Source: Geobacteraceae bacterium
GTDB lineage: Bacteria; Desulfobacterota; Desulfuromonadia; Geobacterales; Geobacteraceae
Length of the DNA stretch: 64,000 nucleotides
Direction of reading: 5' to 3'
Assembly: GCA_024281055.1 (NCBI GenBank)
Contig: JAMXLF010000070.1
Span: forward strand, 1-64,000
This document shows, in pieces, positions 25,838 through 55,129 of this stretch; the first letter of the stretch is position 1, and every line of letters begins with the position of its first letter. The position numbers were made by a program, and so were the translations under genes. The notes under the pieces were generated by a model, which did not search any database, was not told the DNA's origin, and saw nothing but the letters and a program-made list of their open reading frames with translations.

Positions 25838-25892
25838 TGTTCACCCCCGCCACGATGGCTATTTTCACCTGTTTCTCCCCTCCTGAAGATCG

Positions 25893-26945: not shown

Positions 26946-26962
26946 TTCTTTACCTCATTTCC

Positions 26963-27928
26963 TCAAAATGAGACTGAAGGGATAGATTCCCCCCACACTC
27001 CCCGTTCGACGTTATCTTTCCAGAGAGAGGCGATACTCCTGGGGACACATTGCAGATAGCGACCCTCGTATTTCCTCTTCGCATACTCCAGGAACTCTTC
27101 GTAGTACGCCGCCGGATATTCTTCATTTCCGCAACCGCGCCCCTCAAAGATCATATAATCCGGATGTGTGTTCAGGAGCGCCATTCCGCCCTTCGCCGCG
27201 ATCCAGTCGAGCTTCCGCTTCCAGATATCGATCGTTTTCTCCTTCATGAGGACGAACAGGGTAAAGTCCTGGGGAAGGGTGTAGGGCAGCTCTATATAGG
27301 TTCTCTTCGCTCCCTTCCCCTCCACCTGGAAAGGGAAGATCGTCCCTACGCCGTCCGGCTGCGGCTCGAAGGGGTCGGTGTCGAACGTGGAGGCGTCGTA
27401 CTCGATGTCGAGGTCGAGAATCCATTCCAGGTTGTGGAGCATGGAGGGGGAGCGGAAGCCGACGGCCTCCCACTCCCGCAGATAGCCGTTTATGAGGGTG
27501 GCCCGCTGGCGGAACGTCTCCCTCGATTCATAATATTTCCCGTCGTGATACAGGCCGTGGACACCCACCTCGTAACCCGCTTCGACCAGGCAGCGGCGCA
27601 ACCCGGCCGAGACCTCATATCTCCTGGGGACGAAATTGAAGGAAGAGCTGAACCCCAGGTTTCTTTCCATTTCCAGAAGCTGCACGCACCTGTCCTGCCC
27701 CGTTGCCGTATCCACGTCATGGGTGAGCACAAGGGCGAACTGTTTGCCGTCGGGCCATCCCTGCCAGTTTTCCGGTCTTCTCCCTGCCGCTTCAAAGATC
27801 GGCCAGGTATCGGCATGCCGTCTCCTCTTCAGCGCCACCATCCCCCTGCGGATCGTTATCTGCAGTTGCCTGGGAATAAACGGCTTGGCGCGGTAATACA
27901 TTTTCGATAAGAATTCCGTGCGCGACAT
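26963..27928 (-). CDS. Polysaccharide deacetylase (NodB-like) family protein
   Basis: Start ATG 27928 (MSRTEFLSK) lies just after the preceding stop at 27936 and has GGGG upstream; earlier in-frame codons overlap the previous gene. 321 residues. The NodB-type metal/catalytic motif appears as LTHDVDT, followed by GYEVGVHGLYHDGKY (H-x3-H metal motif) and VGFRSPSMLHN. The family removes N-acetyl groups from amino sugars. Similar proteins are constant members of XrtA-type exopolysaccharide loci. No signal peptide is obvious, so it may act on lipid-linked intermediates or be exported otherwise. Confidence 0.8.
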   Translation of the reverse strand: MSRTEFLSKMYYRAKPFIPRQLQITIRRGMVALKRRRHADTWPIFEAAGRRPENWQGWPDGKQFALVLTHDVDTATGQDRCVQLLEMERNLGFSSSFNFVPRRYEVSAGLRRCLVEAGYEVGVHGLYHDGKYYESRETFRQRATLINGYLREWEAVGFRSPSMLHNLEWILDLDIEYDASTFDTDPFEPQPDGVGTIFPFQVEGKGAKRTYIELPYTLPQDFTLFVLMKEKTIDIWKRKLDWIAAKGGMALLNTHPDYMIFEGRGCGNEEYPAAYYEEFLEYAKRKYEGRYLQCVPRSIASLWKDNVERGVWGESIPSVSF

Positions 27929-27935
27929 TTTCGTT

Positions 27936-28970
27936 TCACCCCACATGTCTGTACAACAATTTACCTGCCACTTTAAGCAGCGGGAGCGGCATCCCGTTGA
28001 AAACCACACAGAGCCGTTTGCTCATCGGAGAAGAGGGGCCGGCGTAGCTTCCGCTCTTCGGATCGTACCTGAAATACCTTATTACATGCTCCTTGGCCCC
28101 CCATGCGGTCTTGAACCATCTCAGGCCGGTTGCGTCCTGGTCTGTTCTTCCCATGCAGAGGGTCTTGTATCCACTCTTCGCATAGTGCCTGATCGCCTCC
28201 CAGATGATGAGATTGACGGGTCTCATCTCCTGAAAACGCATATCCAACGCGGTGTATTTATGAATGGCGCTCTCTCCGAACTGGAAAAAGACCCCCCCGG
28301 CGACATATCTGTCGCCGTAGGAGGCGAGGATTACCATTCCGAGTCCTTTCTCTATCATGTGTTCATGGATCTTTCCGAAGAAGTGGAACGGTTGCGGGGG
28401 GAGACCGTGCCTCTTCCGGGTCACGCAGTGAAGCCGGTAAAACTCTCCGAGCGACTCGAGCGAAGTCGATATTTCGGCCTTGGCCCCCATTCTCAACGCC
28501 TTCCCGATATTTTTCCTCATGCAACTGCGCATGCCGGAGAGGAGCTCATCCTCATCGGCGCAAAGGTCCAGGGTATGGCCGACATAAGAATTGAAGCACG
28601 TCATGTCATCGGCAATATAATCATTCCCCCTGAACTCGATATATCTCCAGCCGCGCCGCTTTCCATACTCCTTCACGAACTCCATGGAGAGTTTCCTGTA
28701 TCCGTCATCAAGAAATATCGGCTCGCAATAATCCGTAAACGGAAGCGATACGCCGCGCCGCCCGGTCAGTATGCTCCTGATACCCATGACCGGAATCATG
28801 GCGGACAATCTGCCCCTTTCCACGATGCTGAAGTAAATCGGTTCATACCCATAGGACTCGGCAAGGACCCTTGCCCAGTTCGCTGAGTTGAAGAAAGCCC
28901 CCCGGTGCCCTTCCAGGATCAGGTCGTTCCATTTGCGGTACGATATCGGATTAATAATTTCCATCGGCAT
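27936..28970 (-). CDS. FemAB-family protein of XrtA/PEP-CTERM-associated type
   Basis: 344 residues; ATG 28970 or the ATG two codons later (MEIINPISY). FNSANWARVLAESYGYEPIYFSI, the LPFTDYCEPIF block, RKNIGKALRMGAKAEIS and ALDMRFQEMRPVNLIIWEAIRHYAKSGY (shown here in parts) match FemAB proteins of exopolysaccharide loci. The C-terminal GNAT half ends with LRWFKTAWGAKEHVIRYF. By family these attach an amino acid, but substrates in polysaccharide loci are undetermined. A short sequence starting with the same MEII-P-WNDL pattern lies at 34860-34943 and may be a remnant of a fourth copy. Confidence 0.75.
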   Translation of the reverse strand: MPMEIINPISYRKWNDLILEGHRGAFFNSANWARVLAESYGYEPIYFSIVERGRLSAMIPVMGIRSILTGRRGVSLPFTDYCEPIFLDDGYRKLSMEFVKEYGKRRGWRYIEFRGNDYIADDMTCFNSYVGHTLDLCADEDELLSGMRSCMRKNIGKALRMGAKAEISTSLESLGEFYRLHCVTRKRHGLPPQPFHFFGKIHEHMIEKGLGMVILASYGDRYVAGGVFFQFGESAIHKYTALDMRFQEMRPVNLIIWEAIRHYAKSGYKTLCMGRTDQDATGLRWFKTAWGAKEHVIRYFRYDPKSGSYAGPSSPMSKRLCVVFNGMPLPLLKVAGKLLYRHVG

Positions 28971-29057
28971 TTATCTTTACGGCCACCCCTGAAGCAGCCG
29001 GCAATGGTCATTGCCGGTCATGGGCTCGCCATTATTGGATAATTTTTCTTTCTCCCG

Positions 29058-30167
29058 CTATATCACAGGGGGGTGCATCCCTGCTTCTTCCCCGTACCCC
29101 TTTTGTGCCGTCACGCATCCTTCCAACCGGTAAGGCACTTCAGCTTCACGCCCGGGAAGGCTCAAGAACCTTCGCAAGAGCTGGTAGCCGATCTCACTCA
29201 ATTTCAATAGTGCCGGGGCATGGACAAAGGTGTTTCTGCCGAAATTGACCAGCTCGCCGCCGAATTTCGCCTTGTAATCACGGACCCGGTATTCCTGCGT
29301 CGGTTTTCCGGCGCCGCCGAAGTCGTACTGCCGATAACCGTTATTGGCGCCCCATTCGAGGACATGCCACTGCAACAGCTCATTGGGCGTATATTCGCCA
29401 AGAGAACGGTCCACCCCCCCATACCAACCGTACATCACCTCTTTGTACAGAAGATCTATGGATGCCGCCGCCGGACGGCCATCGACCCTGGCCAGCGTGA
29501 ACCTGATCATCCCCTTGGGCTGCAGCAACGCGAAGGCCTCTTCAAACAGAGCGGGGCTGGCGAGAGGAACACGGGCCCCGGCATACGATTGGCGCAAGAG
29601 GCTATAGCATGCGGCCACCCCTTCAAGGTTTTTCACCTCTTCCACAACTACTCTGGCGGTTCGCAGCCCGCGCCTTATGGCCTTGCGGGTGCGAGGGCCG
29701 ATGTTCATAAGAATATCTTCCGGAGAGCGTCCCAGGTCGACCAGATAATTGAGATGGTCCTCGCGCATAAAACCGTTCTTACTGAGAACCGGCTGGTAGT
29801 CGTCCAGGTTTGCCAGATTCCGCAATTCGGTGAAAAGCGGCGGACCGCTCACGTCCCGCACATAAGCCCGGAGCAACAGGTCGAGCGCCTCCATGCCCTC
29901 CGGTTCCTCGCTGCAGAGGATGCTGCCAAAACCAACGGACCGCGTACATATCCTCAGGAACAGCTTCCCGAGCACCGTAATCCGCACAGGGAGCAAGAGC
30001 GCCAGTATCCTTCCATCGGCGGCGACGACGGCCCACAGATCAGGACAATACCCTTCTGCCTGTGCAAACACCCTGAACATTTCGGGAGTATGAAAGATGC
30101 TCCCGCCAGGGTGGTTGGCCACGAATTCTCCCCAGAGTTTTTCATCCAGCTCTCTGACGACTTTCAT
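29058..30167 (-). CDS. FemAB/GNAT-like transferase
   Basis: 369 residues; ATG 30167 overlaps the ATP-grasp stop as ATGA. N-terminal half: FVANHPGGSIFHTPEMFRVF; centre RTRKAIRRGLRTARVVVEEV; C-terminal half LARVDGRPAAASIDLLYKEVMYGWYGG and YDFGGAGKPTQEYRVRDYKAKFGG, which is the FemAB/BioF2-like acetyltransferase signature (FKxxFGG). Translational coupling to an ATP-grasp ligase suggests the two act in sequence: the ligase makes or activates an amide/peptide and the transferase places it. This link is inference. Confidence 0.7.
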   Translation of the reverse strand: MKVVRELDEKLWGEFVANHPGGSIFHTPEMFRVFAQAEGYCPDLWAVVAADGRILALLLPVRITVLGKLFLRICTRSVGFGSILCSEEPEGMEALDLLLRAYVRDVSGPPLFTELRNLANLDDYQPVLSKNGFMREDHLNYLVDLGRSPEDILMNIGPRTRKAIRRGLRTARVVVEEVKNLEGVAACYSLLRQSYAGARVPLASPALFEEAFALLQPKGMIRFTLARVDGRPAAASIDLLYKEVMYGWYGGVDRSLGEYTPNELLQWHVLEWGANNGYRQYDFGGAGKPTQEYRVRDYKAKFGGELVNFGRNTFVHAPALLKLSEIGYQLLRRFLSLPGREAEVPYRLEGCVTAQKGYGEEAGMHPPVI

Positions 30168-31440: not shown

Positions 31441-32142
31441 TCACCCGGTGTTCCGGGAGAGAGAACCGTTTGCGCCCATGGTCGCATGGAAAGCGATGAT
31501 CTTTTCCCTTACTTCTTCAAGAACCTTTTCCAGGGGCCGCCCGGCATCGATTACCACAAAGTTGCGCACCATCTTCCGGTTCCCGAGAATGGCCTCCCGC
31601 TGCTCCTCCAGGAGTTCTCCCGTCGCATCCCCCTTGCGGCCGGTAAGGACTTCCGGCGGGGCATCCAGAAAAATGACCAGGTCGGGCCGCGGATAGAACC
31701 ATTCAAATATCCGACGCTCCAGATGCTCGAAAAAGCGGCTCACCCTCGAGTTGTTCCGGTCCTCGCACTGGAAGAGGAAATGGCGGTCGAAAATGACGAT
31801 ATTCCCCTGCGCCCGGTAAATGATGGAGAGCAACTGGCGCCACCACGCCTCCGCCATACGATTCAGGAAGCGCGCCGCAACCCAGAGAATGCCCCGCTTC
31901 TTCTCTCCGTAATGAAGATGATCCGTCAAAGGCCCCTGGGTGTCTGCGGGCGCTCCGCCTCTTCCCCTGAAACGGAGTTTCAGGGCGCGGACCAGTCTCG
32001 ACGTGGGAAGCGCGACATCGCTGGAAATAACGCTTGTCCCCATGTAGAGGTATCTTCCCGGCCAGGGAAGGGATTTTTCCAGGAGCCTGGCGATGCTCGT
32101 TTTGCCGCTCCCGTCCCCCCCAACCAGCGCAACCGTGGTCAT
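31441..32142 (-). CDS. Thymidylate kinase-like P-loop protein
   Basis: 233 residues; ATG 32142 after GAGGTGAGACC. Walker A GGDGSGKTS at residues 8-16, an IVIFDRHFLFQCEDR block (DRx motif of dTMP kinases), and LVIFLDAPPEVLTGRKGD corresponding to the LID region. It resembles thymidylate kinases but has a long central insertion (WVAARFLNRMAEAWWRQLL) and lies in a polysaccharide cluster, so a small-molecule or sugar-nucleotide phosphorylation is as likely as dTMP phosphorylation. Substrate is not determinable. Confidence 0.65.
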   Translation of the reverse strand: MTTVALVGGDGSGKTSIARLLEKSLPWPGRYLYMGTSVISSDVALPTSRLVRALKLRFRGRGGAPADTQGPLTDHLHYGEKKRGILWVAARFLNRMAEAWWRQLLSIIYRAQGNIVIFDRHFLFQCEDRNNSRVSRFFEHLERRIFEWFYPRPDLVIFLDAPPEVLTGRKGDATGELLEEQREAILGNRKMVRNFVVIDAGRPLEKVLEEVREKIIAFHATMGANGSLSRNTG

Positions 32143-32154
32143 GGTCTCACCTCA

Positions 32155-32907
32155 TCATCCGGTCAGCGGTCTGGTGCAGAAGAAGATATTCTCGTCAGCC
32201 CGCAGACCATATTTCTCCCTGGTCTCAAGCGGGACATCCTGCGCCAGGTCCACCTTCACCCTGAAGCCGCACTCCTCCAGTCTGTCAACAAGGTCATGAC
32301 CATAGATCCTCACATGGGCGGCCTCGCCGAAGGCCCGTTCACGCTCCACGGCATCAGTGATCGCCGGGTCTTCATAGGTCTTCCGGTCCATCCGTGTCGG
32401 CACGGTTATCAACGCCCATCCTCCCGGCTTGAGAACCCGGTAGAGCTCACCCATCGCCCTGCGGTCGTCAACGATCTCCTCAAGCACATGCACGCACAGG
32501 GCTGCGTCAAAGCTGGAGGACCTTATGGTCATGGCCGTCACGTCCATTATGGCCGACACGTGGGGGCGGCGGATCAGGTCCACAGCGAAGTACCCAAGAT
32601 TCGGCATTGCCGTGAAGCGCCGCGAAAAACTGTACTTGGGCGCTACTTCCAACAGGCGGAGCGGCTCCGCAAAGAGGTTGGTCTTCTTTTGCAGAAAGAG
32701 CCATATCCGCCGATGTCTTGCCTTTGAATTGCAGCGTGGGCAATAGCTCAGGCTCCGTTCCCTGAACATGGTGCCAGCATCGGCAAATGCCCGCACGTGC
32801 CAGCCGCAGCAGGGGCAGGTATACTTCCTGCCGAGAAAAAACACCGCACGCAGCACCAGCAACATCTCCAGCAGCGGGAGCGGTAAAGTGAAACCATGTG
32901 CTTGCAT
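32155..32907 (-). CDS. Zinc-ribbon-containing SAM-dependent methyltransferase
   Basis: ATG 32907 (MQAHGFTLPL) is preferred since it follows the PEP-mutase stop at 32921; the frame is open 81 bases further up inside that gene. 250 residues. An N-terminal zinc ribbon (CPCC at 31-34 and CPRC at 56-59) precedes a class I methyltransferase core, with FDAALCVHVLEEIVDD and YRVLKPGGWALITVP as motifs II-III. The first SAM-binding motif is weak (LLEVAPKYSF). It sits directly after the PEP mutase, so it could methylate a phosphonate, a sugar or a hydroxyl group; which one is not visible. Confidence 0.75.
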   Translation of the reverse strand: MQAHGFTLPLPLLEMLLVLRAVFFLGRKYTCPCCGWHVRAFADAGTMFRERSLSYCPRCNSKARHRRIWLFLQKKTNLFAEPLRLLEVAPKYSFSRRFTAMPNLGYFAVDLIRRPHVSAIMDVTAMTIRSSSFDAALCVHVLEEIVDDRRAMGELYRVLKPGGWALITVPTRMDRKTYEDPAITDAVERERAFGEAAHVRIYGHDLVDRLEECGFRVKVDLAQDVPLETREKYGLRADENIFFCTRPLTG

Positions 32908-32920
32908 GGAGTTCTTCAAT

Positions 32921-33817
32921 TTAGCTACCTTGCGCGGTGTTTCCACCCGGCAGGTACCGGGTTTCCGCTTCATCCAGTTCCCCTGCATTCTGCAGGCGGA
33001 AGATCTCCTTTACCGTGGCGATCTCGTGCTCAACGGGCTCCAGTGAGCGCTCCCGGTTTATCAGGGTCGCTGCCTGCTGCATCGCGGTGATGCTCGCCCG
33101 CATCAGGTGGTTCGCCCAAATGATCACACTGACGCCTGCCTCGGAAAATACGCTGGTGGGGGTGGTGTAATAGGTCGTCGGAACGATCACCACCGGCGAG
33201 TTCCCCCGCCACTCCTTCATGAAAGCCAATATCTCATCGGGGCTGGACTTCTTGCTGTGGATCAGGATAGCGTCAGCACCAGCCCGGCGATAAGCCGTGG
33301 CCCGGCGGAGCGCCTCCGCCAGCCCTTGGCCGGTTATCAGCGCCTCGACCCGCGCTACGACGCAAAAATCGGCGTCGTGCTGGGTGTCTTTCGCCGCCTT
33401 GATCTTGCCGCAAAACTCGTCCACGTCAGCCAGCGGCTGCTGTTCACCCTTGATGAACGAGTTGGTCTTGGGAAACAGCTTGTCCTCGATGCACATGGCG
33501 GCTACGCCACGCTGTTCCAGTTTCCGCACCAGTCTGCGGACGTTGTTGAAATTCCCGTAACCGGTATCGGCATCCAACAGGATGGGGATACCGGAAGCGT
33601 CACTCATGAACTCCAGAACATCCAGGACCTGCGTCCAGCTCGCTTCATTGTTGTCCCGTACCCCCATGGCGGCGGAAATGCAAAGGCCACTTCCCCATAT
33701 TCCCTTGAAGCCGGCCTCTTCGACGATCCTGGCGCTAATGCCGTCATGCGCCTCCATCAGGAACTCTGTTTGGTCAGAGTTCAGCAACGTTTTGAACTGT
33801 GTCGTCTTCTTGCTCAT
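32921..33817 (-). CDS. pepM: Phosphoenolpyruvate mutase
   Basis: 298 residues, the normal length for PEP mutase; ATG 33817 after [21 protein letters not shown] at residues 81-89 supplies the metal-binding aspartates, and [10 protein letters not shown] at 111-120 is the EDKxxxKxNS signature separating PEP mutase from isocitrate lyase and methylisocitrate lyase relatives. [19 protein letters not shown] is the conserved N-terminal strand. The enzyme forms the C-P bond, PEP to phosphonopyruvate. That equilibrium is unfavourable and needs a pulling step, usually a decarboxylase, which is not in this window; the adjacent 2-hydroxyacid dehydrogenase is a candidate. A phosphonate group on the polysaccharide is inferred. 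Confidence 0.9.
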
Positions 33818-33843
33818 CGGTCACCTCCCTAGGCGTTTGTGTA

Positions 33844-34818
33844 TCACCCCGGAAAAGCCTGGACTCCATATCCCGAAATTGTCTTGTAGCTGGTATCGGC
33901 CGGGAATGAACTGACGGCCTCCACAACGCGGCGGCCGATCTCCCGTTGGGTATCTACGGCCATCGCGCCGATGTGCGGCGTAAGGATCACATTCGGCAGT
34001 CTCGCCAGGGGCGAAACTCTCCCCTCCCATTCCTGCTCGTGGACGTCCAGGGCAGCTCCTCGCAGCTGACCTCTTTCGGTCAAGGCCTCATACAAGGCCT
34101 TTTCGTCGATAACACCGCCACGCGCTAGATTGATCAGGTACGAACCGGGTTTCATGCGGGCAAACTCGGCAGAACCGATCAGCGTGCGCGTGCTTTCCTT
34201 GAGAGGAACATTAACGCTCAAATAATCGGCCTCCGTGAGTACTTGGTCAAACTCCACTATCTGGACACCTTTTTCATGGAACATCTGTACGCGTTCCGGA
34301 GAGGAGTGCTCGACGCATCCAATAACATTCATCCCCCAGGCAATTCCCATGTCAGCCAAGCAGCTGCCGATATTACCAACGCCGACTATCCCGAGCGTTT
34401 TGCCCAACAGAAGATGTCCATCCAGTTCATGCTTTGCCCAGCGGCTCTCGCGCATGGACCGGTCGGCCTCGAGCAGCCTGCGACTGAGCGCCAGCATGAA
34501 GGCGAACGCCATCTCCATCACCGCCCTTGCTCCAGGTTGCGGAATACGCACAAGTTTCAGCCCGCGCTGCTGCACGTAGTCGAAGTCTAAGTTGTCCAAC
34601 CCTGATCCTGCGCGGACAAGTAGCTTCAGGTCGGGCGCACATTCCATGAGCTGAGCGCTGATTTCCACGCCGCTGCGAAACACCAGAACCTCGCAGTCGC
34701 GGATGAGGGTCCTGAGCATTTCTTCCGTAACATCACGGAACGCGCAGACCACTTCATGATGTTCCTTGAGCACTTCAATGGCATCTTTGTCGATGGAACT
34801 TGCAATCATGATTTTCAT
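33844..34818 (-). CDS. D-2-hydroxyacid dehydrogenase next to PEP mutase
   Basis: 324 residues; ATG 34818 with AAAGGAG upstream. RAGSGLDNLD and the Rossmann motif GIVGVGNIG (residues 143-151) are typical of the phosphoglycerate dehydrogenase group. LINLARGGVIDEKAL carries the catalytic Arg and ILTPHIGA the catalytic His. It interconverts a 2-oxoacid and a D-2-hydroxyacid with NAD(H). Only 26 bases separate it from the PEP mutase downstream, so reduction of phosphonopyruvate to phosphonolactate is a reasonable inference; a 3-phosphoglycerate-dehydrogenase-like function is the main alternative. A second, diverged member is encoded at 50021. Confidence 0.85.
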   Translation of the reverse strand: MKIMIASSIDKDAIEVLKEHHEVVCAFRDVTEEMLRTLIRDCEVLVFRSGVEISAQLMECAPDLKLLVRAGSGLDNLDFDYVQQRGLKLVRIPQPGARAVMEMAFAFMLALSRRLLEADRSMRESRWAKHELDGHLLLGKTLGIVGVGNIGSCLADMGIAWGMNVIGCVEHSSPERVQMFHEKGVQIVEFDQVLTEADYLSVNVPLKESTRTLIGSAEFARMKPGSYLINLARGGVIDEKALYEALTERGQLRGAALDVHEQEWEGRVSPLARLPNVILTPHIGAMAVDTQREIGRRVVEAVSSFPADTSYKTISGYGVQAFPG

Positions 34819-47066: not shown

Positions 47067-48560
47067 ATGTTAAATTTTCGACTCAAGTCTCTCCATAGCA
47101 AGTGCTGGAATTCTCCGACGCTCATGACTTGGGCGAGCTTTCTTTGCCGTTCGCTCAGTATGATCGTTGTCTTACCCCTGTTGTTGACGAGACTCGAAAC
47201 GGCTGAAATTACAATCTGGTATCTCTTTATGACCCTGATTGGGTTGCAAGCAGTTGTGGATGCCGGTTTCAGCCCGACATTCACCCGTGCCGTAGCCTAT
47301 GGAATGGGCGGGGTAAGTTTACAAGAACTGAACGTTTCCCGGCACGCTGTTAATGATATCAATAATTCGCAGACCCTAGGCCCCATAATTGCCACTATGA
47401 AGCGAGTCTACCTGCTGCTCGGGATTGTCTGGACCCTCTTGCTGGTCGTTTTGGGTACCCTTGTGTTAGCAAAACCCATGTCTGCAGTTAGGGACGTCCA
47501 GAATGCATGGGTTGCCTGGGCAGTCATCGTAATTGTCTCGTGGTGTTCTCTCCAAGGCACAATGTACGGGGCCTATCTCCAAGGAATAAACCAGATTGCC
47601 CTCCTTCGCCGATGGGAAACCGTAACTGTCTTGGGAAGCATTGCAACAAGCGCTTTAGTGCTTCTTTCTGGGGGTGGGTTGCTTGGCCTTGTAATTGCGA
47701 ACCAAAGTTGGCAGATAGTCTTCGCATTACGAAACTGGTGGCTGGCGCAAAAAGCTGAACACGGTTTGCTTCGTCGATGCAGGGGTAATTTTTCCCGGGA
47801 AGTGTTTCGTGCCATGTGGCCGAGCACTTGGCGTAGTGGGTTGGGCATTCTGATGAGCTACGGCTTGATTCAAGCAAGCGGGATCATCTATGCCCAAGTT
47901 GGCAAGACCGAGGATATTGCGGCTTACCTCTTAGGGCTGCGGCTGGTCCAGATGGTAAGTCAATTCTCACAGGCGCCATTTTATAGCAAAATCCCCATAC
48001 TTTCACGTTATTATGCAGAAGGGCGACATCAAGAACTCATTGAAACTGCCAAAAGGGGGATGTTATTATCACATTTCTCATTTGTTTTGGGGATCGTTTC
48101 TCTGGGGCTTGCGGGAGAACCGCTACTTACCCTGATGAGGAGCCATGCGTCTTTCCCCGAAAGCGGGCTCTGGGCGTTTATGGGGATGGCCTTTTTTGTC
48201 GAACGCTACGGAGCTATGCATATCCAGCTGTACAGTACGACTAATCATATCATTTGGCATACGGCCAATGGCATCTCCGGAGCCATATACATTATCGTCA
48301 GTCTTTTGTTGTTCCAGGCAATCGGTGTTTTTGCCTTTCCTGCAGGCATTTTTATCGGTTATGCAGGATTTTACTCGTGGTATGCAGCTGTTCACGCATA
48401 TCGGTACTTCAAGATGAATTTTCTTTCTTTTGAGCGAGGAGCAGCATTGGTCCCCTTTGTAATTATCGTTTTTTACTTTGGGGCATGCATTTTTGCATCA
48501 ACTTATGATTTTAGTTACATAAAATTACAAAAAATGCATGCGCACAAGGTCCCTGCATGA
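47067..48560 (+). CDS. wzx: Wzx-type oligosaccharide flippase, second cluster
   Basis: 497 residues with about twelve membrane spans (LSMIVVLPLLLTRL, ITIWYLFMTLIGLQAVVDAG at the start; FVIIVFYFGACIFAS at the end). LQAVVDAGFSPTFTRAVAYGMGG matches the Wzx/MATE pattern at helix 2-3. It moves lipid-linked oligosaccharide to the periplasmic face. The 201 bases between it and the chain-length gene hold nothing I recognise. The stop overlaps the next start (ATGA at 48557), coupling it to the cytidylyltransferase. Confidence 0.8.
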   Translation: MLNFRLKSLHSKCWNSPTLMTWASFLCRSLSMIVVLPLLLTRLETAEITIWYLFMTLIGLQAVVDAGFSPTFTRAVAYGMGGVSLQELNVSRHAVNDINNSQTLGPIIATMKRVYLLLGIVWTLLLVVLGTLVLAKPMSAVRDVQNAWVAWAVIVIVSWCSLQGTMYGAYLQGINQIALLRRWETVTVLGSIATSALVLLSGGGLLGLVIANQSWQIVFALRNWWLAQKAEHGLLRRCRGNFSREVFRAMWPSTWRSGLGILMSYGLIQASGIIYAQVGKTEDIAAYLLGLRLVQMVSQFSQAPFYSKIPILSRYYAEGRHQELIETAKRGMLLSHFSFVLGIVSLGLAGEPLLTLMRSHASFPESGLWAFMGMAFFVERYGAMHIQLYSTTNHIIWHTANGISGAIYIIVSLLLFQAIGVFAFPAGIFIGYAGFYSWYAAVHAYRYFKMNFLSFERGAALVPFVIIVFYFGACIFASTYDFSYIKLQKMHAHKVPA

Positions 48561-49240
48561 AAATAACGGCTCTGCTTCCCATGAAAGGACATTCCGAGCG
48601 CGTCCCCAATAAAAATATGCGTCCTTTTAACGGGCGTCCCCTCTACCATTGCGTTGCCGAAGTGCTGGAACGCTCGCGGTACATCTCTTCTTTTGTTATC
48701 AATACCGACAGTGAAGTCATTGCGATGGATGCGACCAGGCGTTTCTCAAAGGTTTCGATCGTCGATCGGCCCGAGGAACTGCGTGGTGATTTTGTGCCGA
48801 TGAACGACATAATCGGTTATGATCTGTCAGTCTGCGACGATGAACATTTTCTCCAGACCCACAGCACAAACCCTCTGCTGACGGTTGAAACCCTCGACAG
48901 AGCTGTCGAGGTCTATTTCAGATCGCTAAGTGAATTCGACAGCCTTTTGTCCGTCACGCGGCTGCAAACCAGACTCTACTGGCAATCGGGACTGCCGGTG
49001 AACCATGACCCGAAGGAACTGCTTCGTACCCAGGACCTGCCGCCGATCTTCGAGGAAAATTCCAATTTTTATCTTTTTTCTAAATCTTCGTTTTTCTCTG
49101 CCGGAAACAAAAGAATTGGCCTGAAGCCAAAGATGTTCGAAATGAACAAACTTGAGGCTGTGGACATAGACGAGGAAGAAGATTTCCGTTTGGCTGAGCT
49201 CCTTTACGGGATGCGGAAGGGATATGGTGACCAGGCGTGA
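48557..49240 (+). CDS. CMP-acylneuraminate synthetase-like cytidylyltransferase
   Basis: 227 residues. The N-terminal ALLPMKGHSERVPNKNMRPFNGRPL is the CTP-binding P-loop of NeuA/KdsB-type enzymes, and INTDSEVIAMDA and THSTNPLLTVETLDRAV give the metal and sugar-binding blocks. It couples CMP to an acidic sugar or related acid. No NeuB, NeuC, KdsA or pseudaminic/legionaminic genes are near; instead a pyruvate aldolase and a 2-hydroxyacid dehydrogenase follow with overlapping ends (GTGA at 49237). The substrate is therefore probably not standard sialic acid or Kdo. Related enzymes also make CMP-phosphonates, which matters given the PEP mutase in the other cluster. Confidence 0.85.
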   Translation: MKITALLPMKGHSERVPNKNMRPFNGRPLYHCVAEVLERSRYISSFVINTDSEVIAMDATRRFSKVSIVDRPEELRGDFVPMNDIIGYDLSVCDDEHFLQTHSTNPLLTVETLDRAVEVYFRSLSEFDSLLSVTRLQTRLYWQSGLPVNHDPKELLRTQDLPPIFEENSNFYLFSKSSFFSAGNKRIGLKPKMFEMNKLEAVDIDEEEDFRLAELLYGMRKGYGDQA

Positions 49241-50019
49241 AACTCAAGCAGCTATTGAAGAGCAACCAACCTGTGGTGGGTTCGTGGATTAATACATCCA
49301 GCACAGTTGTGGCTGAAATGATGGCATCTGTCGGCTTTGATTTCTTGACGGTGGATGTTGAGCACTCTGCTGTGGATCTGGTCCAGACCCAGACACTGTT
49401 CCAGGCAATGAAATCGGGTAACCCTGAATGTGCGCCGTTGGTCCGTCTTGCCGGCAACAGTTATGCGGAAACGAAACGGTACTTGGATGCCGGGGCTTCC
49501 GGCGTAATCGCGCCTTTTATCAACTCGGCTGAAGAGGCGCGCGAGCTGGTCAGATCGGTCAAATATCCGCCGGCAGGGATGAGGGGCGTCGGTTTCTGCC
49601 GTGCCAACGGATACGGAATGCACTTGGAGGACGCGGTGGCGGTTGCCAATGCAGAAACCTTTGTCTGTGTGCAAATCGAACACGAACAAGCCGTACGAAA
49701 TATTGACGGAATTCTAGATGTCGAGGGGATCGACGCCATTATTGTCGGTCCTTACGATTTGTCCGCATCTTTGGGTGTGACAGCGCAGTTCGAGCACCCC
49801 AAGATGCTTGCCGCCATGGATGCAATCGGGGCAGCCTGCCAGCGGCACGGCATTGCTGCCGGCATCCATGTAGTGCAACCTGATGTGGCCGATGTGCTCC
49901 GCAGATACCGGCAAGGCTATCGTTTTATCGCCTACAGTCTGGACATCACCATGCTGATGAACGCCTGTATGTCAGGCCTGGCTGAAATACGCAGACTAAT
50001 TGCTGCTGAGGAAGGGTAG
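49237..50019 (+). CDS. HpcH/HpaI-family class II aldolase
   Basis: 260 residues; GTG start overlapping the previous stop. TVDVEHSAVDL holds the catalytic His of the D-x-E-H motif. APLVRLAGNSY has the pyruvate-binding Arg, QIEHEQAVRNI the metal-binding Glu and IIVGPYDLSASLG the metal-binding Asp. These are all the active-site elements of HpaI/RhmA/GarL-type pyruvate aldolases. Such enzymes join or split pyruvate and an aldehyde to form a 4-hydroxy-2-oxo acid. Next to a CMP transferase it could build a non-canonical ulosonic-type acid; a catabolic role seems unlikely in this setting. The precise aldehyde cannot be told. Confidence 0.88.
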   Translation: MKLKQLLKSNQPVVGSWINTSSTVVAEMMASVGFDFLTVDVEHSAVDLVQTQTLFQAMKSGNPECAPLVRLAGNSYAETKRYLDAGASGVIAPFINSAEEARELVRSVKYPPAGMRGVGFCRANGYGMHLEDAVAVANAETFVCVQIEHEQAVRNIDGILDVEGIDAIIVGPYDLSASLGVTAQFEHPKMLAAMDAIGAACQRHGIAAGIHVVQPDVADVLRRYRQGYRFIAYSLDITMLMNACMSGLAEIRRLIAAEEG

Positions 50020-50020
50020 C

Positions 50021-50944
50021 ATGAGAACCATCCTGATCACAACATCAACGTTCGGTGAGCAGTCTCCTGAACTTATTGCTTCACTTGAAGCAGCCGACTT
50101 CAAGGTGGTACTCAATCCCCATCGGAGGAAACTGACAGAATCTGAAGTTGGTGCCCTGATTCAGGAGTACCGTCCAGTGGGAATGATTGCAGGCGTTGAG
50201 CCGCTCACGCGGGCCGTCATGACATCGGCCCCATTTCTGAAGGTTATTTCCCGGTGTGGGATAGGCATGGATTCGGTCGATCTGACGGCCGCGGAAGAGC
50301 TGGGCATTCTTGTTATGAATACCCCCGACGCCCCCACTATACCGGTTGCCGAGCTGACCATCGGCTTGATTCTGGCACTGCTGCGCGGCCTTCACCGTTC
50401 CGATGCATCCATTCGGCAGCACGGATGGGAACGGCCGATGGGGGCACTGCTGCATGGAAAGACGCTCGGAATAATTGGCTGTGGACGCATCGGGTCATGT
50501 GTGGCAAAAATTGCCACCGCCTTCGGCTGTAAGGTGATCGGCAACGATCCCTACCGGTCCGACCATCACTGTCTTGAGCTGATCTCCCTTGAAAGTCTGC
50601 TGCAGATATCCGACGTGATTTCGCTTCACCTTCCCTATACGGAACAGACCCACCATATTGTGGATGAAGAGCGGATAAAGCTGATGAAACAGGGGGCCGT
50701 CCTCGTCAACGCGTCCCGCGGAGGCCTTGTCGACGAGGAAGCTCTTGCCGAGGCACTGAGAGATGGCAGGCTCTCCGGCGCAGCACTTGATTGCTTTGAA
50801 CATGAACCGTATACGGGCCCGCTGGTTTCTGTGGAAAATACCCTTCTAACAGGCCATATCGGTTCGTATGCCTGCGAAGGACGTATGATCATGGAGCGGC
50901 AGGCAGCGGAAAATCTGCTGAATGGTCTGCGCGATTTGAAATAA
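50021..50944 (+). CDS. D-2-hydroxyacid dehydrogenase (phosphoglycerate dehydrogenase-like)
   Basis: ATG 50021 (MRTILITTSTFG) after GAGGAAGGG; an upstream start in frame adds seven residues. 307 residues. RCGIGMDSVDL, GIIGCGRIGS and VNASRGGLVDEEAL (catalytic Arg) with LLTGHIGSY (catalytic His) are complete. It follows the aldolase by one base after its stop, so it likely reduces a 2-oxoacid made there or supplies a 2-oxoacid. Similar in fold to the dehydrogenase next to PEP mutase at 33844 but clearly diverged. Both clusters thus pair an isocitrate-lyase-superfamily-like barrel with a 2-hydroxyacid dehydrogenase. Confidence 0.88.
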   Translation: MRTILITTSTFGEQSPELIASLEAADFKVVLNPHRRKLTESEVGALIQEYRPVGMIAGVEPLTRAVMTSAPFLKVISRCGIGMDSVDLTAAEELGILVMNTPDAPTIPVAELTIGLILALLRGLHRSDASIRQHGWERPMGALLHGKTLGIIGCGRIGSCVAKIATAFGCKVIGNDPYRSDHHCLELISLESLLQISDVISLHLPYTEQTHHIVDEERIKLMKQGAVLVNASRGGLVDEEALAEALRDGRLSGAALDCFEHEPYTGPLVSVENTLLTGHIGSYACEGRMIMERQAAENLLNGLRDLK

Positions 50945-50981
50945 GAACCGGCTACAGGATTGCTCAAGCGGAGATACCAAG

Positions 50982-51935
50982 ATGAAGATTCTGGTTACGG
51001 GGGGCTCTGGTTTTCTCGGCAGCCATGTCGCTGATGCTCTGACCGAGGCAGGGCACGATGTTTCCGTATATGATGTGCAGCCTTCTCCCTACTTGAGGGC
51101 CGGGCAGCGTATGATCATCGGAGATATTCTCGACCAGCCGTCGCTGGAGCATGCGGTGGCCGGTTCCGATGCAATTTACCACTTTGCCGGCATTGCCGAT
51201 ATAGACGAGTGTACCAACAGACCTGTAGATACCGTCAAATACAATATTCTCGGCACGGTCAATTTGCTTGAGGCCGCGCGGAAGGCAAATATTAAACGGT
51301 TTGTGTTCGGCAGTTCGGCATACGTTTACAGCGATTCGGGCTATTTTTACCGTTCCAGCAAGCAAGCCTGCGAATCCTTTATAGAGAATTACAGCGAGCT
51401 TTTCGAACTGAAATATACCTGCCTGCGCTACGGGTCCCTGTACGGTACTCGCACCGATGAGCGTAACAGTATTTACAGACTCCTCCAGCAGGCACTTAGG
51501 GATGGCAGGATTACCTATCATGGGACCGGCGACGAATTGCGCGAATTCATCCACGTGCGCGATGCTGCTGAAATCAGCGTTAAAATTCTGGAGCCGGAGT
51601 TCGAAAACCAGTATATAACGCTGACCGGCAATGAAAAGATGCGCTATTGCGATCTCCTGGACATGCTCAAGGAAATGGTCGGCCCGCAGGTCTTGATAGA
51701 AATTCTGCCCTCTCAAAGAAAAGCCCATTACAAAATTACACCCTATAATTTCAGCCCGAAATTGGGCCGAAAACTGGTCAATAACCCACACATTGACATG
51801 GGACAGGGACTGTTGCAATGCATGGCTGAAATTTATGAAGAAATCCACCAGGAGAAGACAGAAGAGGGTGGATTGCTGGTCGACAGGATGCTCGAACGTG
51901 AAGAAGATATACCTTTCCCATTTTCTGAATCCTGA
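50982..51935 (+). CDS. NAD-dependent epimerase/dehydratase (extended SDR)
   Basis: 317 residues. ILVTGGSGFLGSHVADAL (GxxGxxG), IGDILDQ, IYHFAGIADIDEC, VFGSSAYVYSDSGYFYRSSKQACE (SSA and YxxxK catalytic set) and CLRYGSLYGTRTDERN define an extended SDR acting on a nucleotide sugar. The end contains a less typical glutamate-rich tail (EEIHQEKTEEGG), and its last 38 bases overlap the next gene. Epimerisation or dehydration of the nucleotide-linked acid made by its neighbours is inferred. Confidence 0.85.
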   Translation: MKILVTGGSGFLGSHVADALTEAGHDVSVYDVQPSPYLRAGQRMIIGDILDQPSLEHAVAGSDAIYHFAGIADIDECTNRPVDTVKYNILGTVNLLEAARKANIKRFVFGSSAYVYSDSGYFYRSSKQACESFIENYSELFELKYTCLRYGSLYGTRTDERNSIYRLLQQALRDGRITYHGTGDELREFIHVRDAAEISVKILEPEFENQYITLTGNEKMRYCDLLDMLKEMVGPQVLIEILPSQRKAHYKITPYNFSPKLGRKLVNNPHIDMGQGLLQCMAEIYEEIHQEKTEEGGLLVDRMLEREEDIPFPFSES

Positions 51936-52566
51936 TACCCCCTTTTATGGCGGTGACGGGACGTTTCAGTTCGAAATGCTGCGTTCGATGGAAAGTGGCG
52001 ACTCTTGCAACGCCGCCTTATGGTCGTTTCCCAATCATGCCGGAACTCACATCGACTTTCCTTGGCATTTTTGCCACAATGGTAGGAAACTTCACGACTA
52101 TTCGGCCGACTTCTGGAATTTCTGTACCGTGGCACTCGTAGACCTCTCCGAAGGAAAGAAATTGTCTGAGATCGGGCCGCAACAAATGGAAGATTGTAGA
52201 TTGCCCTCTTCCATTGAGTTGTTGTTAATCAAAACGGGGCACGGGTTCCTGAGGGCAGAACTTTCCTTTTGGCAGGATGGGCCCATTTTCCGACCCGAAC
52301 TTGCGGATTATCTTCGGGAATCCTGCCCGAAATTAAGAGCAATAGGTATGGACACCATCTCCATATCATCTTGGCGTGATCGTACCACAGGACGGGAAGC
52401 GCATAGGGCATTTCTTTGTGGAACGCCTCCTATCCTGCTGATAGAAGATATGGATCTGACAGGACTGAATCGTGACTCACTACTCACTACCGTTACGATC
52501 ACCCCCTTGTTGGTTTACAATGCCGATGCCTCACCATGCACAGTAATAGCGGAGATATACAAATGA
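51898..52566 (+). CDS. Metal-dependent cyclase-family hydrolase (kynurenine formamidase-like)
   Basis: The GTG at 51898 is chosen because it places KKIYLSHFLNPDTPFYGGDG at the N-terminus, as in the family; AGGA lies about 10 bases upstream. 222 residues. NHAGTHIDFPWHF is the metal-binding H-x-G-T-H-x-D-x-P-x-H-F motif, and IGMDTISIS and REAHRAFL give the remaining conserved blocks. Family members hydrolyse formyl/amide bonds or open and close lactones and lactams. In this module it might lactonise or hydrolyse an acid intermediate. Its stop overlaps the phosphatase start (ATGA). Confidence 0.8.
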   Translation: MKKIYLSHFLNPDTPFYGGDGTFQFEMLRSMESGDSCNAALWSFPNHAGTHIDFPWHFCHNGRKLHDYSADFWNFCTVALVDLSEGKKLSEIGPQQMEDCRLPSSIELLLIKTGHGFLRAELSFWQDGPIFRPELADYLRESCPKLRAIGMDTISISSWRDRTTGREAHRAFLCGTPPILLIEDMDLTGLNRDSLLTTVTITPLLVYNADASPCTVIAEIYK

Positions 52567-53201
52567 AGTGGCAAGCGGTTTTTTTTGATTTTGACGGCGT
52601 AATCCTCGATTCCGTGCATGCAAAGACTGAGGCGTTTGCCCAGATGTTCCGCCCTTTCGGAACCGATATTGAACAAGCGGTGGTTACTTACCATCTGGCG
52701 CATGGCGGAATCTCACGCTTCGAGAAGTTCAGGCACTACTATACCCATTTCCTCAACATTCCTGTTTCCGAAGACAGATTGCAGGAACTGGGCGAGGAAT
52801 TCTCCGAGCTCGTTCTTACGAAAATCCTGCAATCTCCGTTCATTGCCGGTGCAGAGGCTACTCTGGTAATGCTTAACGTTGAAAAGATCCCTGCCTATGT
52901 CGTTTCGGGTACTCCATCTGGTGAACTGGAATTCATTGTCGAGCGGAGGGGCTTAACGAAATTTTTCCGGGAAGTGCACGGTTCCCCTCGTTTTAAAGAG
53001 GAAATTCTCCTGGATGTTATCGGGCGGAACGGATTCGAGCCTGCCCGCTGCATCTTCCTTGGCGATGCCATGTCCGACTATAAAGCAGCTCACATCGTAG
53101 GCTTGAAATTCCTGGGAATCGTCTCGGAACAGACGCCGTTTCCATTTCCACCCGGCACCCCTGTTTCTAGTGTTGTTCAATGCAATTTTGAAGATTTTTA
53201 A
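52563..53201 (+). CDS. HAD-superfamily phosphatase
   Basis: ATG 52563 overlaps the cyclase stop. 212 residues. Motif I FFDFDGVILDSV with DxDG, motif II YVVSGTPSGELE, and motif IV ARCIFLGDAMSDYKAAH. The helical cap at residues about 15-85 places it with beta-phosphoglucomutase/phosphoglycolate phosphatase-like enzymes. It may dephosphorylate the sugar or acid intermediate before CMP activation, as KdsC does for Kdo-8-P. Last gene of the coupled 48.5-53.2 kb module; a 121-base gap follows. Confidence 0.85.
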   Translation: MKWQAVFFDFDGVILDSVHAKTEAFAQMFRPFGTDIEQAVVTYHLAHGGISRFEKFRHYYTHFLNIPVSEDRLQELGEEFSELVLTKILQSPFIAGAEATLVMLNVEKIPAYVVSGTPSGELEFIVERRGLTKFFREVHGSPRFKEEILLDVIGRNGFEPARCIFLGDAMSDYKAAHIVGLKFLGIVSEQTPFPFPPGTPVSSVVQCNFEDF

Positions 53202-53322: not shown

Positions 53323-54267
53323 ATGCTGAAATATGAACTGATTGATCCAGAAGAGATGATGCGTTCAGAAGATTTTGCGATTATTGAATCTTTTCTGGAA
53401 GCCAGTAACCAGACTCAGATAGGCTGGCACTATGTAATGGATTTGGTATGGATTTATTCTAAAGCGAAAAGCTGGCCGCGGAATATGAAAGTGCTGGACG
53501 CGGGTGGTGGACGTGGTCCTGGCCAATTGTTGCTTGCGGAAATGGGGTTTGAAGTTACCAATATTGATCTGTGGCATGTATCTCCATCTCCTGCCTGGAA
53601 GGACAGGTACAAAATTAAAATCAAAACATTGGATAGCTATGTGTCAACGACTTATAGAGATCATCTTATAAATGAAAGCTCAGAAAGTTCGGGGGGGGTG
53701 AAGGCATCATTAAAAACGTTGATGTCTGTTGCCTGTCCAGAAATTTTAGAAAAATGGCAAAGCTTGAAAGCAAGAACATACCATAAGCCATTAGACCATT
53801 GGCGCTCTTACTGGCACCAGGATAGATATCCCGTGGGCCGCATAGAATGGATCACTGGCAATTTGTGCCATCTTCCTGAAATCCCAAAAGGAAATTTTGA
53901 TGCCGTTATTTCACTTTCTTCACTGGAGCACATTCCGATAGAGACACTTGAGCAAGGGCTGAAAGAAATTTGCAGGGTCTTAAAAGACAACGCCCACTGG
54001 GCAGTAACGACCTCGGGTACTGAAAAGTCTGAAACATGGTTTCACGAACCGTCAAAGGGTTTATGCTTTTCTGCTTCTGATTTGAATAAGTATTTTAATG
54101 CGATAGAAATGAGGGCTACGGAACCTGAGTTAATCCTCGAGAAGTACCGCCATAGTGAATATCTCGAAAAAAATATTGCCGAAAGTTACAAGAAATCTGG
54201 GAACAACGGTATGCCGTGGGGCGTATGGAACCCCCAATATTTTCCTGTCGGCATTTGTCAGGGTTAA
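53323..54267 (+). CDS. SAM-dependent methyltransferase
   Basis: 314 residues. Motif I is VLDAGGGRGPGQLLLAEMG and later AVISLSSLEHIPIETL and GLKEICRVLKDNAHWAVTT give the class I methyltransferase layout. About 80 residues (HLINESSESSGGVKASLKTL and onward) are inserted between the first beta strand and the acidic motif. Substrate is not identifiable. From here on the DNA appears noticeably more AT-rich than the minus-strand cluster. A sugar methylation role is inferred from context. Confidence 0.8.
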   Translation: MLKYELIDPEEMMRSEDFAIIESFLEASNQTQIGWHYVMDLVWIYSKAKSWPRNMKVLDAGGGRGPGQLLLAEMGFEVTNIDLWHVSPSPAWKDRYKIKIKTLDSYVSTTYRDHLINESSESSGGVKASLKTLMSVACPEILEKWQSLKARTYHKPLDHWRSYWHQDRYPVGRIEWITGNLCHLPEIPKGNFDAVISLSSLEHIPIETLEQGLKEICRVLKDNAHWAVTTSGTEKSETWFHEPSKGLCFSASDLNKYFNAIEMRATEPELILEKYRHSEYLEKNIAESYKKSGNNGMPWGVWNPQYFPVGICQG

Positions 54268-54310: not shown

Positions 54311-55129
54311 ATGAACACTTTCATGGGTCGTTTGATCTTGCGCGGGAAGAGGGAGCGTGAAGCCTTCATCAGGAGGATGCGGGAGGTCAAGTGGTCGTTG
54401 AGTTCAGAAGGCAAGGAGAACCGACGTAAGCTGGTCAGCTTGAAAGGAAAGTTCTCAGGCCGCCGTTGCTTTATTATGGGTAACGGCCCTAGTCTTCTGA
54501 AATGCGATCTTACCCTGCTCAGGAATGAAATCACAATTTGCAGCAATGCCAATTATCTCATCTGGGACAAAATCGGATTTGTCCCGACGTTTCTCACCGT
54601 AGAAGATTGTCTCGTAGCGGAGGATAGATCTTCTGAATTGAACAGTATTCATCAGACTATGAAGGTATTTCCCTTTGATCTAAGAAAGTTTTTATCCTAT
54701 TCCAATGATACTGTTTATGTTAACTTTATTCGTGACTACAAAGGGTTTCCGAAGTTCTCTGCCAAATTCGAGGACATAGTGTATTGGGGCGGAACTGTAA
54801 GCATGTTGAATCTTCAACTGGCATACTATCTTGGATGCACTAAAATCTATTTAATTGGTTTTGACCATCACTACGCCGTTCCGGATAAGATAGTAAATCA
54901 TGTTATTACTTCGGAGACTGATGACGTTAATCACATCCACCCGAACTACTTCGGCAAAGGTTATCGCTGGCATGATCCCGATGTTGAAAGAATGGAACGT
55001 GGATATGCCAAAGCTCGGAGTTTCATGGACTCTCGCGGAATAGAGGTCAGGAATGCGACGGTGGGGGGGGAACTTGAAGTCTTTGGGCGTACAGATTATC
55101 TTTCCTTATTTGATTCTATAAAGGAGTAA
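54311..55129 (+). CDS. DUF115/MAF-like protein (6-hydroxymethylpterin diphosphokinase MptE-like fold)
   Basis: ATG 54311 (MNTFMGRL) is the first start after the methyltransferase stop; the frame continues upstream inside that gene. No strong ribosome-binding site is seen. 272 residues. The DUF115 domain has FIMGNGPSLLKCDLTLL near the start, ICSNANYLIWDKIGFVPTFL and YYLGCTKIYLIGFDHHYA. In bacteria this domain occurs in motility-accessory (Maf) glycosyltransferases and in surface-glycan loci. Here it lacks the extra Maf domains, so a glycan-related transferase is likely but the reaction is unknown. Confidence 0.75.
   Translation: MNTFMGRLILRGKREREAFIRRMREVKWSLSSEGKENRRKLVSLKGKFSGRRCFIMGNGPSLLKCDLTLLRNEITICSNANYLIWDKIGFVPTFLTVEDCLVAEDRSSELNSIHQTMKVFPFDLRKFLSYSNDTVYVNFIRDYKGFPKFSAKFEDIVYWGGTVSMLNLQLAYYLGCTKIYLIGFDHHYAVPDKIVNHVITSETDDVNHIHPNYFGKGYRWHDPDVERMERGYAKARSFMDSRGIEVRNATVGGELEVFGRTDYLSLFDSIKE

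Follow-up and report, generated by a model that had tools for sequence, protein, structure and literature searches.

How can an ulosonic-type surface sugar be made and activated where a cytidine monophosphate (CMP)-transferase gene stands without a gene for a synthase dependent on phosphoenolpyruvate (PEP)? The question is raised by a six-gene cassette (48557-53201) in the window analysed here, the first 64 kb of contig C70 in the 4.44-Mb, 103-contig genome of a Geobacteraceae bacterium. To our knowledge, the CMP-ulosonic acids whose synthesis is known (3-deoxy-D-manno-octulosonic acid (Kdo) and the sialic, pseudaminic and legionaminic acids) are all built by PEP-dependent synthases. The established pathways pair NeuB with NeuA, PseI with PseF and KdsA with KdsB, and NeuB serves as the marker in genome surveys for such sugars. 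We find that the six genes form a cassette conserved across distantly related bacteria, which probably makes and activates an unusual acidic cell-surface sugar without a NeuB- or KdsA-type synthase. A conserved NeuB-less cassette would imply that many phyla harbour a family of acidic surface sugars that has been overlooked. The cassette names enzymes open to direct testing, and offers a possible function for a branch of PF04199 and for the 6-phosphogluconolactonases of genomes lacking glucose-6-phosphate dehydrogenase.

Six packed genes and their enzyme families

The cassette consists of six tightly packed open reading frames (ORFs) on the + strand, all present in the ORF list and recognised by Pfam (Table 1): a CMP-ulosonate synthetase-like cytidylyltransferase (CMPT), an HpcH/HpaI-type aldolase (ALD), a D-2-hydroxyacid dehydrogenase (HADH), an extended short-chain dehydrogenase (SDR), a PF04199 metal hydrolase (CYC) and a HAD phosphatase (HAD). 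The original prediction, made from the DNA alone, described six packed genes with overlaps at 48557, 49237 and 52563. All three overlaps are real, joining respectively the stop of a flippase-like gene to the CMPT start, the CMPT stop to the GTG start of ALD, and the CYC stop to the ATG of HAD, and Pfam confirmed the family assignments. HADH starts at 50021, one base past the ALD stop, and CYC most likely starts at GTG 51898, within the end of SDR. The prediction also held that a CMP-acid synthetase-like enzyme is present here without NeuB or KdsA; indeed, neither the ORFs nor Pfam revealed a PEP-dependent synthase in the cassette.

CMPT exceeds the PF02348 gathering cut-off (85.2 versus 22.6 bits) and lies below the equivalog cut-offs for PseF (78.5 versus 205.7 bits) and KdsB (19.3 versus 155.2 bits). 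Its closest relatives in the PDB are CMP-sialate synthetases (E 8e-14), and D203 and D205, which we take to be the metal site, are invariant among 39 aligned sequences. ALD passes the PF03328 cut-off (123.7 versus 25 bits), matches HpaI structures at E 1e-45 and keeps H43, R70, E148 and D174, presumably the catalytic residues, in all 32 sequences; it stays below the equivalog cut-offs for HpaI (177.4 versus 368.8 bits), GarL (166.9 versus 406.75) and RhmA (138.9 versus 441). R235, E264 and H281 of HADH (alignment numbering) are invariant in eight sequences, and the family of this enzyme includes 2-ketogluconate reductase and 4-phosphoerythronate dehydrogenase. SDR retains S111, Y123 and K127 in all 33 sequences; a structure search with its predicted model returned the GalE-type fold (Z 34), with extended SDRs throughout at Z 30-34, a result that does not discriminate function. 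Among 30 sequences of CYC, H47, H51, H57, D152, H169 and E183 are invariant and D53 is kept in at least 90%, so that the motif HxGTHxDxPxH followed by D, H and E, which we take to be that of the PF04199 metal hydrolases, is invariant or nearly so. Conservation of the metal ligands in all 30 is consistent with a hydrolase, and CYC falls below the cut-off for the kynurenine formamidase KynB (TIGR03035, 56.8 versus 223.05 bits). Finally, in 21 HAD sequences D9 and D11 are nearly invariant, and K145, D168 and D172 fully so.

Conservation of the cassette

We compared the surroundings of CMPT in 89 loci, namely the best 80 of at least 503 CMPT relatives from one-per-species genomes plus nine further loci. 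The 80 are nearest relatives, not a random sample; some neighbourhoods are clipped by locus ends, and gene calls outside the window are mechanical. All six genes lie on one strand within 7 kb in 20 of the 80 loci, and at least five do so in 32. The 20 six-gene loci span eight phyla (Deferribacterota, Bacteroidota, Bacillota, Campylobacterota, Thermodesulfobacteriota, Chloroflexota, Spirochaetota and Bdellovibrionota); among them the order ALD-HADH-SDR-CYC-HAD is that of the window and of Campylobacterota, and ALD-SDR-CYC-HAD-HADH that of six of the seven Bacteroidota. In two loci, L043 and L107, CYC is placed upstream and is merely 24-25% identical. Counted within 7 kb on the CMPT strand across all 89 loci, HADH occurs in 75, ALD in 46, an SDR-like gene in 41 (some of them weak matches), a short SDR in 40, CYC in 37, an MptE-like gene in 35 and HAD in 33.

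As a control, we took 59 loci of other PF02348 enzymes (KdsB- and PseF-like) in the window's class; a PF02348 search supplied 29 of them and a PseF search 30 (58 distinct, five incomplete). None of the 59 carries a relative of ALD, HADH, SDR, CYC or HAD within 1.5 kb, and the same flanks in the 80 family loci contain ALD in 37, HADH in 34, CYC in 11, SDR in 9 and HAD in 2. The co-occurrence in the family, set against its absence from the controls, indicates that the grouping exceeds chance, and the gene set whose neighbourhoods the original prediction proposed to survey is conserved together in other genomes. Within the window's class, CMPT relatives reaching E 1e-25 were found in 10 of 277 genomes, the own genome included; six of these relatives, 48-55% identical, have neighbourhoods with HADH adjoining CMPT and without ALD. 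We found no account of this gene set in the open-licence PubMed Central literature, among the matches listed, in agreement with the earlier remark that no described pathway with exactly this set was known.

Exchange of CYC for a 6-phosphogluconolactonase-like gene

In six of the 89 loci (L034, L053, L057, L061, L062 and L064) CYC is gone and a 6-phosphogluconolactonase-like gene (PGL) adjoins SDR; in the five of them that have HAD, PGL lies between SDR and HAD. A seventh such locus, L177, was found later by an SDR search at E 1e-70 of 395 genomes of L064's order, which gave two matches, one of them the query's own. Pfam confirmed PF01182 in the three PGL proteins scanned (L034, L053 and L061), and that of L053 scores 166.6 versus 124.45 bits as a 6-phosphogluconolactonase. 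The 32 loci with SDR, ALD and HAD divide into 19 with CYC only, five with PGL only, none with both and eight with neither (one-sided Fisher p 0.006, related loci not being independent); counting the 24%-identical CYC of L107 gives 20, 5, 0 and 7 (p 0.004).

We then looked at whole genomes, six of them with PGL-type cassettes (L034, L053, L057, L062, L064 and L177). The C-terminal domain of glucose-6-phosphate dehydrogenase (PF02781) was found in none of the six, an absence that is no proof since completeness values are lacking, and in 9 of 14 control genomes. In each of the six the top PGL match was the cassette's own gene; it passes the PGL cut-off in L034, L053, L062 and L064, and falls short of it in L177 and in L057, where the match is partial. 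By contrast, neither PGL nor PF02781 was matched in any of seven Bacteroidota genomes that carry CYC-type cassettes (L029, L032, L048, L054, L056, L060 and L063). The presence of PGL in the first group and its absence from the second, with PF02781 missing from both, suggests that in these lineages PGL is tied to the cassette and not to the pentose phosphate pathway. The genome from which the window comes encodes, besides CYC, an ordinary zwf-pgl pair at C24.

Since PGL adjoins SDR, SDR would be the natural source of its lactone, and the replacement of CYC by PGL, which concerns some loci of Bacteroidota type, points, at the level of gene content, to a sugar lactone and an aldonate. We propose that CYC is a sugar lactonase. 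The original prediction had cast it as a cyclase modifying the acid, a part that oxidation through a lactone would replace.

Two proposed exchangeable arms

We distinguished three types of locus. Type A, that of the window, comprises CMPT, ALD, HADH, extended SDR, CYC or PGL, and HAD, and accounts for 37 of the 89 loci under a loose rule (ALD plus an SDR relative). Type B, by definition without ALD, has CMPT, HADH and a short SDR (33 loci, 11 of them with CYC), often together with a family 2 glycosyltransferase (GT2) and an MptE-like gene; its members include Methanosarcina, Chloroflexota and species of the window's class. In type C (nine loci) an AroB-related phospholyase and/or a SIS isomerase adjoins CMPT, usually also with ALD, HADH, a Gfo/Idh enzyme and a short SDR, and sometimes with a YhcH/NanQ-like gene.

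An extended SDR (at least 36% identity) is present in 35 loci and a short SDR (at least 28%) in 40, never both in one locus. HAD stands alongside the extended SDR in 32 of 35 loci and alongside the short SDR in none of 40. One pathway with a phosphorylated and a free-sugar version would fit this pattern. In a quick tree of CMPT the types are largely separate (17 changes versus a shuffled mean of 42).

Individual loci vary further. CMPT is accompanied by an AroB-related phospholyase and a GmhA-like isomerase in the type C loci L070, L099, L102, L082, L044 and L058; ALD and HADH are found in most of these, a NanQ-like gene in some, and the phospholyase of L070 exceeds the TIGR04425 cut-off (456 versus 400 bits). 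In L073 (10001-14762), neither HADH nor a lactonase accompanies CMPT and ALD, and the genes that follow encode an epimerase/dehydratase and a split transketolase.

Oxidation or aldol addition

The substitution of PGL for CYC, the near-constant presence of HADH and the ALD-less sister cassette together point to aldose oxidation via a lactone and an aldonate. The reading we favour, tentatively, is that the cassette oxidises a sugar, and does not condense PEP, to supply a surface glycan with a CMP-activated 2-ulosonic acid; all substrates and the order of steps are inferred from the gene content, conservation, active-site residues, folds and exchange patterns that we observe. SDR would act on an aldose phosphate, oxidising its C1 to give a phospho-lactone, which CYC would open to a phospho-aldonate. 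Oxidation at C2 by HADH would give a 2-ketoaldonate, itself an ulosonic acid, with HAD removing the phosphate before or after the HADH step. CMPT would then join the anomeric hydroxyl to CMP, and the Maf-fold protein encoded downstream (MPTE) would transfer the activated sugar. HpcH/HpaI-type aldolases work on 2-keto acids via metal-bound enolates; ALD, as a metal enzyme acting on the C3-C4 bond of 2-keto acids, may reset or extend the carbon skeleton or alter its stereochemistry, and this role is the least certain part of the route. Type B would be a free-sugar version in which the aldolase is not needed; its short-SDR members keep HADH despite lacking ALD. Oxidation thus explains type B, the two arms and the exchange of CYC for PGL. 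The later genome checks of PGL and PF02781 strengthened the lactone step; the role of ALD and our overall estimate were unaffected. The dephosphorylation by HAD that was originally predicted finds support as a phosphatase step.

More broadly, and a shade more tentatively, we suggest a PEP-independent oxidative route to CMP-ulosonic acids across bacteria and archaea, with two exchangeable arms and Maf-fold users. The phosphorylated arm would consist of extended SDR, PF04199 hydrolase or 6-phosphogluconolactonase, and HAD, and the free-sugar arm of short SDR and PF04199 hydrolase; both would lead into a D-2-hydroxyacid dehydrogenase and CMP-transferases of one family. Such a route would yield 2-ketoaldonic acids, or versions of them edited by the aldolase; activated sugar acids of this class are not described in the open-licence literature, among the matches listed.

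The cassette resembles the NeuB/NeuA, PseI/PseF and KdsA/KdsB pathways in its PF02348 CMP-transferase, its phosphatase and a nearby sialyltransferase-fold enzyme. Unlike them, it has an HpcH/HpaI aldolase, a D-2-hydroxyacid dehydrogenase, an SDR and a PF04199 hydrolase instead of a PEP-dependent synthase. Oxidative sugar metabolism, as known from glucose-6-phosphate dehydrogenase and 6-phosphogluconolactonase, from GhrB/TkrA in gluconate and 2-ketogluconate metabolism and from PdxB, shares with it the logic of dehydrogenase, lactonase and 2-hydroxyacid dehydrogenase, and some cassettes use PGL itself. The cassette, however, is tied to CMP activation and surface-glycan genes, and the six PGL-type genomes searched lack a PF02781 match.

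The main rival, which we consider doubtful, is the addition of pyruvate by ALD, as in the original prediction. Here the substrate that ALD adds to an aldehyde, free or phosphorylated, would be pyruvate or else hydroxypyruvate supplied by HADH; HAD would dephosphorylate the product, CMPT would activate the resulting 3-deoxy (or 3-hydroxy) ulosonate, and SDR and CYC would prepare or tailor the acceptor. Types A and C, though different in other respects, both pair CMPT with ALD, as does L073, which has a transketolase pair and no HADH; the active-site residues of ALD are conserved, and the HADH sequence follows the presence of ALD. However, this scheme leaves unexplained both PGL standing in for CYC and the sister cassette that has CMPT and HADH without ALD, in a set of loci where NeuB relatives are rare (see below). 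The aldolase of the original prediction is present and conserved and may add pyruvate, but the PGL exchange, HADH and the ALD-less type B point to oxidation of an aldose. A hybrid of the two models is possible.

Several observations weigh against oxidation. A purely oxidative route has no need of ALD, which is nevertheless found in 46 of the 89 loci, and in a quick HADH tree (77 rows) a single change splits loci with ALD from those without it; together these results argue that ALD is no accessory. HADH was not found within 7 kb in 13 of the 89 loci, and its top equivalog is 3-phosphoglycerate dehydrogenase (TIGR01327), under the cut-off (249.9 versus 454 bits). We hold this identity less likely, given the distance from the cut-off and the AGVEPL preceding the conserved T, where phosphoglycerate dehydrogenases presumably have an Arg-Ser pair. 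The nearest structures to SDR are nucleoside diphosphate-sugar epimerases, and the short SDR does not reach the cut-off of any aldose or glucose dehydrogenase model shown. The coupling of HAD to the extended SDR has exceptions (HAD without it in two loci, SDR without HAD in three), the SDR identity thresholds and the types were set after seeing the data, and the neighbourhood counts are not independent of descent.

The eight loci with neither lactonase also count against the lactone step. Six of their genomes were searched: PGL occurs elsewhere in those of L036, L040, L047 and L050, and none over the cut-off was found in those of L031 and L035. PF02781 is present in the genome of L047 and was not found in that of L050, whose PGL lies outside the cassette, so that PGL without PF02781 is not unique to PGL-type genomes. 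Reading the ORF lists of L036, L019 and L031 by eye, we recognised no other lactonase. The PGL of L050's genome (locus L179) is over the cut-off, away from the type A cassette and without a glucose-6-phosphate dehydrogenase match in that genome; it may be an orphan lactonase serving that cassette.

The likely product and its user

The predicted model of MPTE (pLDDT 93.8) is closest to the Maf structure 5mu5 (Z 14.5, root-mean-square deviation 3.7, 194 residues aligned) and also matches CstII (1ro8, Z 12.5), CMP-bound forms included (Z 11.6-12.5). MPTE shares this fold with the Maf/DUF115 flagellin glycosyltransferases and differs from them in being a short single-domain protein in a polysaccharide locus. 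Maf enzymes are reported to attach nonulosonic acids to flagellin, and one accepts both N-acetylneuraminic acid and Kdo (PMC11339370). The Maf/CstII fold makes a CMP-activated ulosonic acid the likely product of the cassette, and MPTE, judged by its model, is the likely user of this donor, with transfer of the sugar as its predicted activity. MptE-like relatives occur anywhere in 53 of the 89 loci, including a weaker second group under the Pfam cut-off. Eight of the 89 loci have a YhcH/NanQ-like gene no more than 7 kb from CMPT, in favour of the oxidative reading and its product. Two results weigh against that reading: 18 of the 37 type A loci have an MptE-like relative, and the one YhcH-like protein scanned is below the cut-off for the sialate anomerase NanQ.

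By profile and a KdsA query, relatives of NeuB are found in six of the 89 loci and of KdsA in one, which supports the original claim of an ulosonic-type CMP donor made without a PEP-dependent synthase. Could the acid come from elsewhere in the genome? CMPT would then serve Kdo or the product of a NeuB-like protein encoded on contig C99, and ALD, HADH, SDR, CYC and HAD would make another component of the glycan, such as a hydroxy-acid substituent. The own genome does have KdsB (contig C26) and a NeuB-like protein on C99 without a PF02348 partner on that contig. We regard two products from one operon as unlikely: CMPT anchors cassettes in many phyla, Methanosarcina and Chloroflexota included, NeuB and KdsA relatives are as rare as just stated, and the C99 protein lies among CDP-glucose genes, below the NeuB and PseI cut-offs. 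The search for NeuB/KdsA-like genes that had been proposed did find a NeuB-like protein, the one on C99.

The own genome contains three PF03102 stretches, two of them weak (46 and 35 bits). The third belongs to the C99 protein (locus L108, 4174-11476, - strand), which carries a C-terminal cupin and is encoded beside an acetolactate-synthase-like thiamine pyrophosphate (TPP) enzyme, a HAD protein, RfbH and cytidine diphosphate (CDP)-glucose genes; RfbH, CDP-glucose 4,6-dehydratase and glucose-1-phosphate cytidylyltransferase are all over their cut-offs. This set suggests a further pathway built around a NeuB relative. We set this protein aside as a source of ulosonate in view of its cupin domain and its CDP-glucose surroundings, no link to the cassette having been seen.

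It had also been suggested that CMPT activates a phosphonate. The window does encode a PEP mutase with the EDKxxxxxNS motif (32921-33817), about 15 kb from CMPT, but on the opposite strand and in a separate gene run. The PntC families named in PMC6697681 are PF12804, PF00483 and PF01129. CMPT matches none of them, giving solely PF02348 at E 0.001, and PEP mutase relatives occur in two of the 89 loci, both fused to a cytidylyltransferase-like domain of their own. Activation of a phosphonate by CMPT is therefore highly improbable.

The PEP mutase of the window lies beside a second D-2-hydroxyacid dehydrogenase, a methyltransferase and a thymidylate-kinase-like protein (31441-34818, - strand), possibly a phosphonate cluster without a recognised cytidylyltransferase. 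In L043 (7857-12260) and L107 (14056-18463) a type A cassette is followed by LicD, a fusion of PEP mutase and a CTP_transf_like domain, a TPP enzyme and an iron alcohol dehydrogenase; from their families, the extra genes would be a phosphonate tailoring set beside an ulosonate cassette.

Gene map and neighbouring genes

Relatives of the flippase-like protein upstream of CMPT are found in seven of the 89 loci (53% identity in L035), and relatives of the methyltransferase-like protein near four. Downstream of MPTE lie genes for a Gfo/Idh oxidoreductase, another epimerase-like protein and a GT2 enzyme.

Table 1. Genes of the cassette and its flanks in the window
Feature	Coordinates	Strand	Evidence and remarks
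Flippase-like membrane protein	47067..48560	+	Identity by eye; no Pfam match; stop overlaps CMPT start
CMPT, CMP-ulosonate synthetase-like cytidylyltransferase	48557..49240	+	PF02348, 85.2 bits
ALD, HpcH/HpaI class II 2-keto-acid aldolase	49237..50019	+	PF03328, 123.7 bits
HADH, D-2-hydroxyacid dehydrogenase	50021..50944	+	PF02826, 199 bits
SDR, extended short-chain dehydrogenase; proposed aldose-phosphate 1-dehydrogenase	50982..51935	+	PF01370, 161 bits
CYC, PF04199 metal hydrolase; proposed sugar lactonase	51898..52566	+	PF04199, 58 bits
HAD phosphatase	52563..53201	+	HAD_2 (PF13419), 57 bits
Methyltransferase-like protein, between cassette and MPTE	53323..54267	+	PF08241
MPTE, Maf/sialyltransferase-fold glycosyltransferase	54311..55129	+	PF01973, 58 bits on longer ORF

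Two further groups of genes lie on the - strand of the window. One run (24914-30167), adjoining polysaccharide genes, encodes a DUF354 protein and three proteins that match FemAB/GNAT, some weakly and some clearly. Three large tandem proteins with near-identical starts are encoded at 6599-16814, and the one scanned (13416-16814) is an NHL-repeat protein.

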